Shown: positions 42,574-47,694 of the stretch, piece by piece
How the letters are laid out: the number at the start of each line of letters is the position of its first letter
Position numbering within the stretch: the first letter of the stretch is position 1
Source of the DNA: Sulfuriroseicoccus oceanibius
Lineage (GTDB): Bacteria > Verrucomicrobiota > Verrucomicrobiia > Verrucomicrobiales > SLCJ01
Assembly: GCF_010681825.2 (NCBI RefSeq)
Contig: NZ_CP066776.1
Location: 3,286,001-3,350,000, forward strand
Length of the DNA stretch: 64,000 nt
Direction of reading: 5' to 3'
Program-made: the position numbers and the translations under genes
Notes under the pieces: generated by a model
Told to the model about the DNA's origin: nothing
What the model saw: only the letters and a program-made list of their open reading frames with translations
Databases searched by the model: none

Positions 42574-42685
42574 ACCAACCAAGCAACCACAGACCACACA
42601 CCACGCACAGTGATTTTTTCCTCGGAAAAATCCACAGAGCAGGAATCGCTGCGCTCCGATTGCGACAGAGATACCGAAGTCGCGT

Positions 42686-42757
42686 CCGACCTTCCGACCT
42701 TCCGACCTTCCGACCTTCCGACCTTCCGACCTTCCGACCTTCCGACCTTCCGACCTT
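42686..42757. repeat. 8-bp tandem repeat, nine perfect copies
   Basis: The unit CCGACCTT occurs nine times without a mismatch, followed by a broken copy. The length is not a multiple of three, so an open frame through it (reading GRKVGRSE repeatedly on the minus strand) is an artefact. It lies 113 bp upstream of the Nif3-like start codon. Copy number is likely to vary by slippage. Confidence 0.97.
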
Positions 42758-42922: not shown

Positions 42923-44116
42923 TTACGATGCCTTCACATCCGCAGACACTGTATCAGCCAGCTTTGCCACGTTGATATAATCGATCAGCTCACGCCAACG
43001 ACCGAAGCGATTACGATGAGGCCGGCAGATCAGCCGCGGCAGCTCCTCCAACCCCTTCTCTGTCTGCTCTGGGATCAGCGGCCCGCCCTTCTTAAACTCG
43101 CCACTCACCAACAAATCACTAAAGCGCTTGTTAATTTCGTCCACCGCATCGTCGTGCAACTCGTGATGCATACGAATCGACATGCGGTCGCGGCAGAACC
43201 GATACGAATGGAAGTTCGTGTAGAAACGCAGCACCTGATCCACGGCATCCTCCACACTGTCCGTCACGGTGAACAAACTCATATCTTCAGGAGAGATCAA
43301 CTCACCTGCCAACAAGTGCTCTTTGATAAAGCGCTCAAAGCTCTTCCAATACGTACCGCCCGGTTCATCAAGCAATATGATTGGCTGGATCGCCGCCTTG
43401 CCGGTTTGGATCAATGTGAGAATCTCGAACCCTTCGTCCATCGTACCAAAGCCCCCAGGGAAGAGTACAAACGCATCCCCTTCTTTTACAAACGACAGCT
43501 TGCGCGTGAAGAAGTAGTTAAATGTAACCAACTTCTCATCGTCGCGGATTGTCTCGTTGGCGCTTTGCTCAAATGGCAGGTCGATGTTCAGCCCAAAACT
43601 GTGCTCGCGCCCTGCTCCGAGCTGGGCCCCGCCCATGATGCCATCGCCGGCACCGGTGATGGCCATCCACCCCTTGTCGCGCATCTTCGCAGCAAAGGTC
43701 ACTGCCGAGCGGTACGACGGCAGGTGCGAATGCGTCCGTGCCGATCCATAGCAAACCACTTTACGGTGGTTACGGTAAGGCTTGAACATCTCATTGGCTT
43801 CGCGCATTTCCTTCATCGCGCGGTTGATCAACTTCATGTCGCCCTGGCCCGTATTATCCGCACCGATCTTGAGGGCCGTGATGATCATCTCACGCACGAG
43901 GCTGTTGCAGGAATCGTCGCACGACCACTCGGAAACAATTTCGTTCAATTGCGCATCAAGGCGCTTGTTTCCTGTCGAGCCGCGATACTCATCCGGCAAC
44001 GCCAGGATTCCGCCACCGGTGAAATCACGGTCGTGAAGGGACTCATCAACCCCCGCGTTATCAGCGTCGTTGAGTTTGGATCCTCCGGTCTTCAAGGCAT
44101 ATGGTCGTCTGCTCAT
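42923..44116 (-). CDS. LOG-family protein (TIGR00730-like, long form)
   Basis: A 397-aa member of the LOG ('lysine decarboxylase-like') family, whose characterised members are cytokinin riboside 5'-monophosphate phosphoribohydrolases or nucleotide 5'-monophosphate nucleosidases. The core lies at about residues 115-285: VVCYGSARTHSHLPSYRSAV, AITGAGDGIMGGAQLGAG and the signature VLFPGGFGTMDEGFEILTLI (PGGxGTxxE). About 110 residues precede the core and about 100 follow, so it is longer than the plant-type enzymes and closer to the long bacterial form. It stands alone, divergent from the first DAHP synthase gene. Confidence 0.88.
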   Translation of the reverse strand: MSRRPYALKTGGSKLNDADNAGVDESLHDRDFTGGGILALPDEYRGSTGNKRLDAQLNEIVSEWSCDDSCNSLVREMIITALKIGADNTGQGDMKLINRAMKEMREANEMFKPYRNHRKVVCYGSARTHSHLPSYRSAVTFAAKMRDKGWMAITGAGDGIMGGAQLGAGREHSFGLNIDLPFEQSANETIRDDEKLVTFNYFFTRKLSFVKEGDAFVLFPGGFGTMDEGFEILTLIQTGKAAIQPIILLDEPGGTYWKSFERFIKEHLLAGELISPEDMSLFTVTDSVEDAVDQVLRFYTNFHSYRFCRDRMSIRMHHELHDDAVDEINKRFSDLLVSGEFKKGGPLIPEQTEKGLEELPRLICRPHRNRFGRWRELIDYINVAKLADTVSADVKAS

Positions 44117-44240
44117 GGCGCTGAGCTTGCCCGATGATTCTCAACACGGTCAATCATTACCGATTCATCGCGCATATTCCTCGCACCGCCCCCAGTCCCC
44201 CCTTGACCCACCGCCAATGCTCCGGCACTAGTCCAGTGCT

Positions 44241-45296
44241 ATGGAAATCACCGAGGACTTGCGCATCCGCAACATCGACCCGCTCATCTCACCAGTTCTG
44301 CTCGAAAAGCAGCTCCCGCTTGGTGATGCAGAAGCGGCCACCGTCAGCAACGCCCGCAAAGCTGCCGCCGACATCCTCCACGGTCGTGACGACCGCCTGC
44401 TCACCGTCGTAGGACCATGTTCGATCCACGACCCAGCCGCAGCGCTCGACTATGCCGCCCGCCTCAAAGAAGTGATTCCCCAGTATCAGGACGATTTGCT
44501 CATCATGATGCGCGTCTACTTTGAAAAGCCACGCACCACCGTCGGCTGGAAAGGATTGGTCAACGACCCCGACCTCAACGGATCCTTCGAAATCAACAAA
44601 GGCCTCAAGATCGGCCGCAAGCTCTTGCTCGACCTCGCCGCCATGGGCATCCCATCGGCCACCGAGTTCCTCGACACCATCACCCCTCAGTACATCGCCG
44701 ACCTCGTCGCGTGGGGCGCCATCGGTGCTCGCACCACCGAAAGCCAGATCCACCGCCAACTTGCCTCGGGTCTTTCGATGCCGGTCGGGTTCAAGAACGG
44801 CACAGGCGGCAGCTGCCAAATCGCCGTCGACGCCATCCAGGCCGCCCAAGGCGCTCACCACTTCCTCGGTGCCACCAACCAAGGTCTGTGCGCCATCGTC
44901 GAAACCTCTGGCAACGAAGACTGCCACCTCATCCTGCGCGGCTCGTCCGCCGGCCCGAACTACGACGCCGCCTCGGTCGCCGATGCCGTCGAATTGCTCA
45001 CCAAGACCGGTCTCGACCCTCAGTTGATGATCGACTGCTCGCACGGCAACAGCTTGAAAAAGCACGAAAACCAGCCGCGTGTCGCCGCTGAAGTCGGTGA
45101 GCAAATCGCAGCAGGCAACGAGGCCATCGCCGCGGTCATGATCGAGAGCAACCTCGTCGAAGGAAACCAAAAGCTCACCGACGACCCATCCCAGCTCACC
45201 TACGGCCAGAGCATCACCGATGCCTGCATCAACTGGGACACCACCCTCGAAGTCTTCGACACCCTGGCTCAATCCGTCCGCGCCCGCCGCGGATAA
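44241..45296 (+). CDS. 3-deoxy-7-phosphoheptulonate synthase (type I, AroG/F/H-like), copy 1
   Basis: Condenses phosphoenolpyruvate with erythrose 4-phosphate to open the shikimate pathway. The 351-aa product shows the type I core: VVGPCSIHDPAAALDYAARL, MMRVYFEKPRTTVGWKGLVN with DPDLNGSF after it, GIPSATEFLDTITPQYIADL, the WGAIGARTTESQIHRQLASG stretch, MPVGFKNGTGG, ILRGSSAGPNYD and MIDCSHGNSLKKHENQP. The N-terminal ITEDLRIRNIDPLISPVLL is the region that carries feedback-inhibitor binding in AroG/F/H. A second gene of identical length lies at 45990-47045. A terminator begins 87 bases after the stop codon. Confidence 0.96.
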   Translation: MEITEDLRIRNIDPLISPVLLEKQLPLGDAEAATVSNARKAAADILHGRDDRLLTVVGPCSIHDPAAALDYAARLKEVIPQYQDDLLIMMRVYFEKPRTTVGWKGLVNDPDLNGSFEINKGLKIGRKLLLDLAAMGIPSATEFLDTITPQYIADLVAWGAIGARTTESQIHRQLASGLSMPVGFKNGTGGSCQIAVDAIQAAQGAHHFLGATNQGLCAIVETSGNEDCHLILRGSSAGPNYDAASVADAVELLTKTGLDPQLMIDCSHGNSLKKHENQPRVAAEVGEQIAAGNEAIAAVMIESNLVEGNQKLTDDPSQLTYGQSITDACINWDTTLEVFDTLAQSVRARRG

Positions 45297-45312
45297 GGCA
45301 AAGGCTTGATGG

Positions 45313-45342
45313 CCACAAAAAGGCGCGAAAAGACACAAAAAA
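45313..45342. repeat. left inverted repeat of the GxxExxY element
   Basis: Thirty bases starting GCCACAAAAAGGCGCG and continuing AAAAGACACAAAAA. The reverse complement occurs at 45828-45857 with one mismatch (G for A at the 14th base). The pair encloses the GxxExxY gene and a terminator, defining a 545-bp unit inserted 16 bases after the first DAHP synthase stop codon. GAT occurs beside both ends, which could be a short target duplication or chance. Confidence 0.92.
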
Positions 45343-45383
45343 GAATTGGCCAAATAACCTTTACTCCCGATTCCCCAAAGATG

Positions 45384-45420
45384 CGTTCAGGACACTCTTC
45401 AGTCCTGAACGTATTTTTTT
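45384..45420 (+). terminator. strong intrinsic terminator overlapping the GxxExxY stop codon
   Basis: CGTTCAGGAC (45384-45393) pairs perfectly with GTCCTGAACG (45402-45411) around an 8-nt loop, then T-A and seven T residues on the plus strand. It would stop transcripts from the upstream DAHP synthase gene. Its right arm also encodes the last residues (VQD) and stop codon of the minus-strand GxxExxY gene, so it lies inside the inverted-repeat element. Confidence 0.9.
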
Positions 45421-45770
45421 ATGAATAGCTTTGGAGCACCGAAGTTGATCAACAGCCCATCTCGCGTCTTCGAGGACCTCAAGTAATCAAGGAGTTGAGC
45501 AACGTGCTCAGTTGTGATCGCCCGACAGGCCTTGAGTTCGATGATTAACCGACCATCAACGAGCAAATCAACGAAGTACTCCCCTAAAACAGCCCCGTCC
45601 TCATCGTAGACGGTCAACGGGTGTTGTTGAGCAACCGGGATGCCCTGTAACTTCAACCGATGAAACAAAGCGTTCTCATACACTTTCTCGAGGTGTCCGC
45701 TGCGATGGTACCTGTGGATGGAAAAGCTGGTTTCCCGAACAATATCGCATAGCTCGTTGATCGCTTTCAT
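45399..45770 (-). CDS. GxxExxY protein, PD-(D/E)XK nuclease-like
   Basis: A 123-aa protein of the GxxExxY family, named after the motif seen here as G25-H-L-E28-K-V-Y31. Further on, D68 in EYFVDLLVDG and E78-L-K80 in RLIIELKA give the D-x9-E-x-K arrangement of PD-(D/E)XK nucleases; the family is counted in that superfamily but its activity is not established. The ATG at 45770 has a good GAGGGAT ribosome site upstream; an open frame to 45908 would run through the right inverted repeat. The gene is enclosed by 30-bp inverted repeats, and the enclosed DNA looks less G+C rich than its neighbours. It interrupts a tandem pair of DAHP synthase genes. Confidence 0.88.
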   Translation of the reverse strand: MKAINELCDIVRETSFSIHRYHRSGHLEKVYENALFHRLKLQGIPVAQQHPLTVYDEDGAVLGEYFVDLLVDGRLIIELKACRAITTEHVAQLLDYLRSSKTRDGLLINFGAPKLFIKKYVQD

Positions 45771-45827
45771 ATCCCTCAGGCACCATAGCAACACGCACAA
45801 ACACGTTAGAAAAGAACCACGCTTAGC

Positions 45828-45857
45828 TTTTTGTGTCTTTTCGTGCCTTTTTGTGGC
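45828..45857. repeat. right inverted repeat of the GxxExxY element
   Basis: Inverted partner of 45313-45342, 29 of 30 positions complementary. It lies 57 bp upstream of the GxxExxY start codon, so it may also carry that gene's promoter. The second DAHP synthase start is 132 bp further on. Confidence 0.92.
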
Positions 45858-45989
45858 GATCCCAAATGATCCGCAGATGGGCTCGTCAGCGGTTGACGGC
45901 TTCTCCACTCACACGCACAATCGGAAGTGAACTTGGCGGACGCCGCCGAATCACCCCGATTCATTTTCCCAGCAATTCTCCAGTACCCG

Positions 45990-47045
45990 ATGAAAAACAC
46001 AGACGACCTCCGCATTGCCGAAATCGACCCATTGATGGCACCACAACTTCTCATGAAGGAGTTGCCGGTTTCGGACAAAGCCTCCGAACTCGTTGCAGCC
46101 ACCCGCGCCGCCAACGAAGCTATTCTCAACCGCAACGACCCGCGGCTGCTCGTCGTCGTCGGCCCATGCTCGATCCACGACACCGATGCCGCTCTGGAAT
46201 ACGGTCATCAGCTCAAGGAGCTCGCCGAAAAACACAAGGACACCCTCGTGATCGTGATGCGCGTCTACTTCGAAAAACCGCGCACCACCATCGGCTGGAA
46301 GGGACTCATCAACGACCCATGCCTCGACGACTCGTTCGACATCAACCGCGGCCTCCATACCGCACGCAAGCTGCTCATCGATCTGGCGAACATGGGTGTC
46401 CCAGCCGGCACTGAGTTCCTCGACACCATCTCCCCGCAGTACATCGCCGACTTGGTTACCTGGGGCGCCATCGGAGCGCGCACCACGGAGAGCCAGGTCC
46501 ACCGCGAACTCGCGTCCGGTCTGTCGATGCCAGTCGGCTTCAAAAACGGAACCGGCGGCAGCCTCCAAATCGCCATCGACGCAATCAAGGCCGCCAGCTA
46601 CCCACACCACTTCCTCTCGGTCACGAAGCACGGTGTAGCCGCCATTGTCACCACCGAGGGCAACGAAGCCTGCCACGTCATCCTGCGCGGTGCGTCGTCC
46701 GGCCCGAACTACGACGCCGGCAGCGTAGCCAAAGCCTGTGCCGACTTGAAAGCCGCCGGACTCACCGAGACCGTCATGATCGACTGCTCGCACGGCAATA
46801 GCAAAAAAGACTACCGCAACCAACCAGGAGTTGCCTCCACCGTGGCCGCCCAGATCGCCGAAGGCAACAAAGCCATCACCTCGGTCATGATCGAGAGCAA
46901 TCTCCACGAAGGCAATCAGCCTCTCGCCGCACGCGACCAACTCGCCCACGGCGTCAGCATCACCGATGCCTGCGTTAACTGGGAGACCACCGTCGCCATG
47001 ATCGAAGAGCTCTCCGACGCCGTGAAATCCCGCATGGCCAAATAA
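45990..47045 (+). CDS. 3-deoxy-7-phosphoheptulonate synthase (type I), copy 2
   Basis: Paralogue of the enzyme at 44241-45296, also 351 aa, and co-linear with it throughout: NTDDLRIAEIDPLMAPQLLM, VVGPCSIHDTDAALEYGHQL, VMRVYFEKPRTTIGWKGLIN, WGAIGARTTESQVHRELASG, MIDCSHGNSKKDYRNQPGVA. The catalytic core is nearly the same in both; the N-terminal regulatory stretch and the outer helices differ more. In enterobacteria such paralogues respond to different aromatic amino acids; whether these do is unknown. The ATG at 45990 matches the copy 1 start; a frame to 45927 is non-homologous. Confidence 0.96.
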   Translation: MKNTDDLRIAEIDPLMAPQLLMKELPVSDKASELVAATRAANEAILNRNDPRLLVVVGPCSIHDTDAALEYGHQLKELAEKHKDTLVIVMRVYFEKPRTTIGWKGLINDPCLDDSFDINRGLHTARKLLIDLANMGVPAGTEFLDTISPQYIADLVTWGAIGARTTESQVHRELASGLSMPVGFKNGTGGSLQIAIDAIKAASYPHHFLSVTKHGVAAIVTTEGNEACHVILRGASSGPNYDAGSVAKACADLKAAGLTETVMIDCSHGNSKKDYRNQPGVASTVAAQIAEGNKAITSVMIESNLHEGNQPLAARDQLAHGVSITDACVNWETTVAMIEELSDAVKSRMAK

Positions 47046-47071
47046 GCCAGCACTCACCCGTCGAAGATTTT

Positions 47072-47134
47072 CCCCGAAGGGGAATCGCAAATCAGCCCAG
47101 GGTGAACGGAGCCTAAGGCGACGTCACCCTGGGA
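47072..47134. repeat. interspersed palindromic repeat, family 1, copy 2
   Basis: Second copy of the 63-bp element at 42765-42827. The stem CCCAGGGTGA (47096-47105) and TCACCCTGGG (47124-47133) is fully conserved, while four of six differences lie outside it. It starts 26 bp after the second DAHP synthase stop codon in a 229-bp gap that holds nothing else I recognise. Confidence 0.9.
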
Positions 47135-47274
47135 ACTCCAAACGCAGCCATCCGGCCAAGCGTGCGATCCATTTACCCCGATGAACTCGCCCGCCGGCCG
47201 CTCCCACACCTACGCCACGCCTGAAACGGGCACCGACTGACACCCACCACATCTGCAAGAAGCGCCCACCCACC

Positions 47275-47694
47275 ATGCCCGACTCCTACCAACGCATCCG
47301 CCTGCTCAAAGACTGCCCATGCGGCAGCGGCCGAAACTACGGCGAATGCTGCCACCCGTACCACAAGGGCAAGGCCTATCCGGAAACAGCGGAACAACTC
47401 ATGCGCTCACGCTATTGCGCATACTTCTTCCGCCTCACCGACTACCTCGTCAGCACCCACCACCCCGACACCCGGGACAAAAACCTCCGCGACAAACTCG
47501 AAGAGGAAATCTACGACCTCAACTGGGTCGGACTGCGCATCATCAACTCAAGCAAGGGCCAGGCCGATGACAAAACCGGCAAGGTCGAGTTCTCCGCCGG
47601 GTACTTCTACCTCAACGAAAAACTCGACCTCCACGAGAAGTCACGCTTCCGCCGATTCAAGGGCAAATGGAAGTACCTCGACGCGAAAGGCTAG
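47275..47694 (+). CDS. YchJ-family SEC-C motif protein (UPF0225)
   Basis: A 139-aa protein with an N-terminal SEC-C zinc-binding motif, CPCGSGRNYGECCHPYHKG (C-x-C-x8-C-C type), followed by the YchJ core AYPETAEQLMRSRYCAYFFR and DYLVSTHHPDTRDKN, and the closing strand region VEFSAGYFYLNEKLDLHEKS then RFRRFKGKWKYLDAKG. The family folds like a cystatin/NTF2-type domain; its role is not known. The ATG at 47275 places the zinc motif at about residue 14, as in relatives. A strong terminator follows 26 bases after the stop. Confidence 0.9.
   Translation: MPDSYQRIRLLKDCPCGSGRNYGECCHPYHKGKAYPETAEQLMRSRYCAYFFRLTDYLVSTHHPDTRDKNLRDKLEEEIYDLNWVGLRIINSSKGQADDKTGKVEFSAGYFYLNEKLDLHEKSRFRRFKGKWKYLDAKG

Follow-up and report, generated by a model that had tools for sequence, protein, structure and literature searches.

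A 546-bp unit bounded by inverted repeats, found in the 64,000-nucleotide stretch of DNA analysed here (the window), represents a class of small mobile elements that is very widespread and apparently has not been described before. The class is best explained as REPIN-like, with a small RecB/Cas4-type nuclease that recognises the repeats (arms), a reading to which we give a probability of roughly two in three. Comparisons of sequence between genomes show a mobile, arm-bounded unit for the class; the nuclease itself may be what moves it.

A nuclease gene between inverted arms

The unit lies at 45312–45857 of the window, between two DAHP synthase genes, and was delimited by an inverted-repeat search with shuffles. 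It had originally been predicted as a 545-bp unit at 45313–45857, which is right as to the unit and one base late as to its start. The arm 3' of the gene's stop codon (GCCACAAAAAGGCGCGAAAAGACACAAAAA, 45312–45341, plus strand) comprises three CRCNAAA-type units (CACAAAA, CGCGAAA and CACAAAA) about 10 bp apart, and the arm 5' of the gene (45828–45857, minus strand) has GCCACAAAAAGGCACGAAAAGACACAAAAA as its reverse complement. The predicted identity of these 30-bp terminal arms at 29 of 30 positions is confirmed, with 32 of 34 positions identical in the extended arms (45308–45341 and 45828–45861), and the alignment scores 29, whereas 3000 shuffles of the two flanks that preserved dinucleotides never scored above 16. 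That an ordinary chromosomal nuclease gene merely adjoins a chance inverted repeat might be suggested by those family members that have no repeats, but shuffles never come near the observed score, and the recurrence of the pattern throughout the family refutes this explanation, to which we assign next to no probability.

The gene (45399–45767, minus strand, stop codon included) encodes a predicted GxxExxY (TIGR04256/PF13366) PD-(D/E)XK nuclease, and its 122-aa reading starts at an ATG after the upstream arm. A terminator-like hairpin at 45377–45418, with 17-nt arms that are 88% complementary and a T-run on the plus strand, encloses the stop codon in its loop, where a terminator had been expected. 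Both neighbours lie outside the element on the plus strand (44241–45296 and 45990–47045) and are indeed DAHP synthase genes, 63% identical to each other, as their description as paralogues had implied. Just beyond the right arm, at approximately 45870–45880, stands a lone CCGCAGATGGG unit that belongs to another arm type. The reported lack of a transposase inside the unit is borne out: it has no DDE, serine or tyrosine transposase. Profile searches with the protein gave only PF13366 and TIGR04256 matches. No known RNA family was found at 44000–47500.

The encoded protein is a clear family member, scoring 113 bits against a cut-off of 35 for TIGR04256 (8.9e-33) and 103 bits against a cut-off of 22 for PF13366 (1.5e-29). 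It has both the PD-(D/E)XK active site E / D / E-x-K and a QxxxY motif, which marks the RecB/Cas4 branch of these nucleases; the GxxExxY and D-x9-E-x-K motifs named in the original prediction are present, the latter as D67-x9-E77-x-K79. Among 16 aligned family members, E27, Y30, D67, K79, Q91 and Y95 are invariant, with G24, L26 and E77 nearly so. No solved structure is convincingly recognisable from the protein's sequence. Its AlphaFold model (pLDDT 96.2) finds its nearest PDB folds in Cas4 SSO0001, LHK-Exo, lambda exonuclease, AdnAB/AddAB and MGME1, and these matches are modest (best E 6e-4, TM-score 0.5–0.6). In its modelled fold the protein is similar to Cas4 and lambda exonuclease, and it is predicted to be a RecB/Cas4-type PD-(D/E)XK nuclease. 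In two orthologous copies of one element (L275 and L279), differences at the three codon positions amount to 0.029, 0.036 and 0.261, and this 7–8-fold excess at third positions indicates that the protein is maintained by purifying selection in this one copy family.

The entries TIGR04256 and PF13366 in the family library offer a name only. The GxxExxY name occurs in two papers of the open-access literature searched; an excerpt from one of them deals with annotation beside a reverse transcriptase rather than with mobility, and searches of that literature with the arm sequence and the family names returned nothing relevant; an earlier description elsewhere is possible. Identity with a defence family was rejected, the only matches being weak ones to PDC-M36A (4e-4 to 7e-4). 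A phage origin of the element was likewise set aside, since tblastn gave no match in 50,697 phage records and plasmids alone matched the nuclease, in seven records.

Recurrence and movement across genomes

Inverted repeats stand beside most other GxxExxY genes as well, in keeping with a search that had been proposed for them. The window's own genome (one 3.5-Mb contig) has seven GxxExxY genes and, by inspection, repeats beside all seven, each locus with a different arm sequence and at an unrelated place. Among relatives, repeats scoring at least 13 were counted at 31 of 36 loci, mostly the best-scoring locus per genome, compared with 7% for pairs made of the upstream flank of one locus and the downstream flank of another (swapped flanks) and 0 of 27 DAHP control genes. 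A phylum-wide set gave 22 of 26 loci. In a set from many phyla (80 loci from named genomes plus seven plasmid loci, 84 usable), which covers Planctomycetota, Pseudomonadota, Bacteroidota, Chloroflexota, Acidobacteriota, Cyanobacteria, Spirochaetota, Methanosarcinales and others, repeats were present at 62 of 84 loci against 19% of swapped flanks, a control rate raised by the likeness among arms of one type. Of another sixty loci, 36 had repeats, against 3.8% of swapped flanks; within this set the loci L299–L305 and L307–L313, which score among the lowest and include 270-aa proteins, have no inverted repeats and are a built-in negative control. The share thus ranges over the samples from 60 to 86%, compared with 4–19% for mismatched flanks.

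The original reading of the unit as a mobile element is upheld by these family-wide repeats, by the arm type that relatives share, by a same-genus genome without the unit and, for a relative, by orthologous sites that are full in some genomes and empty in others. The same-genus genome is G001, in which the two DAHP genes are about 636 bp apart with other sequence between them; a comparison with related strains had been proposed. The window's own arm sequence is a single copy in its genome, so the movement of this particular element rests on its absence in G001. For other members of the class, a unit lies between fabD and fabG in Sphingomonas parapaucimobilis, and these genes are some 15–35 bp apart in S. 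paeninsulae, Methylobacterium and Sinorhizobium. At one orthologous intergenic site of genus g9, 16 of the 29 loci with both flanks read contain an insert of 540–757 bp, six have just 40–76 bp, and seven have remnants, single arms or different hairpins built on a similar plan; in further genomes the flanks at this site are close together too.

Copies that have no gene are abundant. Triple-unit arms, mostly gene-less, number 30, 29, 37 and 11 in the genomes G000, G001, G048 and G055, where they far outnumber the genes, and a reversed control pattern has zero copies in the same four genomes. In G048, near-identical gene-less units, each about 180 bp long, have the arms as their termini and lie in unrelated flanks. 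These units (L373–L390) are present in many copies and nest one arm type within another, with CACAGAG as the outer type and ACAGAATTA as the inner; the nested second type is that of another nuclease element of this genome (L262). The Akkermansia-like genomes G029 and G363 yielded three copies of one element, two of them internally deleted, with the full copy and both deleted copies in G029. Both genomes also hold many scattered gene-less units of about 190 bp with three CGGAA motifs per arm (L239–L253); these are enclosed by a longer inverted repeat containing AGACTTC..CACCGC..GTGGTAG and were therefore set aside as main proof of the boundaries. One arm sequence of G000 occurs as three direct copies exactly 376 bp apart (L410 1026–1802; G000 C1:528322–529101).

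Direct repeats of at least 4 bases beyond the arms are found in 13% of 95 elements and in 15% of permuted pairs, and the GAT target duplication once suggested for the window unit is not sustained by this lack of any excess. Nor was a target common to the loci found, the flanks outside the arms being unrelated and near background. Insertion into terminator hairpins or palindromes was also rejected, as extra inverted repeats occur in the outer flanks of only about 7% of elements. For lack of a target duplication and of a shared target, both homing and ordinary (DDE-type) insertion sequences fit poorly. A homing-type element, in which the nuclease would cut unoccupied alleles at a fixed target and recombination would copy the unit, would agree with the small size of the nuclease and with the presence or absence of the unit at one orthologous site, but it is made very improbable by the unrelated outer flanks, by gene-less, MITE-like copies at many unrelated sites and by a single genome in which seven copies, differing in their arms, occupy unrelated places. 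The homing comparison offered in the original prediction is likewise unsupported.

Arm design and probable recognition by the nuclease

Among 120 elements with clear arms, 78 have exactly three units, and the spacing is mostly 8, 9 or 10 bp. The units are CRC-N-RA-K or ACAGGAT with close variants, neither of which fits in only four of the 120. When the two arms of one element are compared, unit positions 1, 3, 6 and 7 differ in 0.3–1.7% of cases, compared with 21% for position 4, which is free, and 33% for the spacers; the definition of the units favours low difference at the fixed positions, and the spacer value stands independently of it. Each arm seems to be read as sequence. At L103, L106, L110 and L169, idiosyncratic insertions are common to both arms, as if one had been copied from the other.

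These differences bear on an RNA-level explanation, in which the unit would behave like the intervening sequences of 23S rRNA: the arms would pair in the transcript, RNase III would cut the stem, the unit would be silent or removed as RNA, and the nuclease would be secondary. The sense strand of the gene does fold with the arms paired (z = -6.0), elements lie between adjacent co-directional genes such as fabD and fabG, and S23 genes share the architecture, the intervening sequence (IVS) of Coxiella having inverted repeats, RNase III excision and three tandem heptamers (PMC4990558). We nonetheless consider this explanation unlikely. Mismatches between arms fall in spacers and not in units, and those that a G-U pair in the sense RNA could tolerate show no excess (173 vs 159, P = 0.48), so that RNA pairing was rejected as the constraint on the arms for want of any G-U asymmetry. 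In addition, arm type follows nuclease clade, a correspondence that base pairing by itself does not demand, and the spread of gene-less copies would still need a route.

The agreement between arms and protein was examined in 69 elements from family searches in one phylum, sorted into four arm types by the last letters of the unit; the types were defined after inspection of the arms, though ahead of tree building. On the tree of the 69 proteins, which has 120 columns, many weak forks and a single phylum, the four types require 4 changes, with a minimum of 3 and a mean of 33.6 after shuffling, and none of 200 shuffles was as low. The window protein clusters with L289, L295, L297 and L306 (100% SH-aLRT), its four nearest relatives, which are 56–69% identical to it, come from genomes of other families and all have its arm type. 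This comparison ties arm type closely to nuclease clade. It shows that the arms are part of the same unit as the gene and have been constrained over long times, and it suggests that the nuclease probably recognises the repeats. Direct recognition would be the simplest reading of the concordance, which could also come from joint inheritance on one unit without such recognition. In some genomes, for instance G001, numerous arms are of a type whose corresponding nuclease was not recognised in that genome.

It is also conceivable, if about equally unlikely, that the arms are moved by some other, unrecognised enzyme, and that the GxxExxY gene is cargo or a host-type control nuclease riding along. 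This would account for arms that outnumber genes (in the window's own genome, 30 arms of the searched pattern against seven genes), for unrelated four-helix-bundle genes in similar arms and for a unit that encodes no integrase. However, such a close match of arm type to nuclease clade would be unexpected, as would a nuclease so regularly inside such arms across phyla, and the gene-less arm pairs examined in the window's own genome have no substantial ORF between them.

In the preferred, REPIN-like reading, the window unit would be an autonomous copy, in which inverted arms, each repeating a short motif about three times at intervals of roughly one turn of the helix, enclose one small nuclease gene. 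At both termini the nuclease would recognise, as DNA, the motif that is repeated in its own type of arm and would cut or trim the arms, probably in a single-stranded or hairpin form. Replication and repair by the host would then set the unit elsewhere without a target duplication. Hairpin copies that have such arms and no gene would be served by the same nuclease, much as RAYT enzymes are believed to serve REPINs, and it is by analogy with REPIN/RAYT that we infer recognition and cleavage of the arms and the route of copying. RecB/Cas4-type nucleases are not known to act as stand-alone transposases.

A broader proposal can be made only tentatively, at slightly short of even odds: a nearly universal new class of mobile elements, with a stand-alone enzyme like Cas4 or lambda exonuclease, arms of three helically phased motifs and no transposase or integrase, in which enzyme and arms would co-diversify, and to which the S23/IVS elements would form a parallel class with an unrelated protein and the same arm design. 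The window class places a very common protein family, one of unknown function, in a biological context and ties many short scattered genomic repeats to an enzyme that likely recognises them. Its many natural enzyme–arm pairs are test material for how a minimal nuclease might mobilise DNA.

Relation to known mobile and intervening elements

MITEs and classical insertion sequences share with the window class their terminal inverted repeats and internally deleted, gene-less copies, but the window class has neither a DDE, serine or tyrosine transposase nor a target duplication. Homing endonuclease elements differ in having a conserved insertion target, whereas the flanks of the window class are unrelated between loci.

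A closer likeness exists with the intervening sequences of 23S rRNA. These also have one small ORF (S23) inside an inverted repeat, at about 430–550 bp, with tandem short units beside the ORF, and in the window element, too, the ORF is enclosed by inverted repeats composed of short tandem units. In Coxiella, three tandem GACAGAT heptamers lie upstream of the S23 ORF, and a past as a mobile element has been discussed for this sequence (PMC4990558). The protein is an S23 four-helix bundle in the one case and a PD-(D/E)XK nuclease in the other; the units are spaced 7–8 bp in the IVS and 8–10 bp in the window class, which is intergenic and not in rRNA. In the phylum of the window, TIGR02436 (S23) genes (L071–L077 and L314–L342) have inverted repeats at 23 of 31 loci, compared with 4% of swapped flanks, and their arms consist of tandem 7–8-bp units in the layout of the Coxiella IVS. 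The parallel bears on the old question of whether rRNA intervening sequences descended from mobile elements. The window itself has about nine tandem copies of the 8-mer GACCTTCC at approximately 42683–42755, with a period like that of the arm units of S23-type elements.

The REP-type comparison of the original prediction was apt, given the abundance of gene-less hairpin copies. REPIN/RAYT systems, like the window class, combine an autonomous enzyme gene flanked by inverted motifs with many short gene-less hairpin copies per genome and an arm type linked to the enzyme type, and no target duplication is seen in either. Gene-less palindromic copies in the same genome were found for relatives of the window element, whose own arm sequence is single copy. 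The arms differ, with about three units 8–10 bp apart in the window class and one REP hairpin with a GTAG-type tag in REPIN/RAYT, and so does the enzyme, a Y1/HuH tyrosine transposase in REPIN/RAYT and a PD-(D/E)XK nuclease of RecB/Cas4 fold here. Since the defining RAYT enzyme is absent, the window unit is a variant of the REPIN/RAYT kind rather than a member of it.
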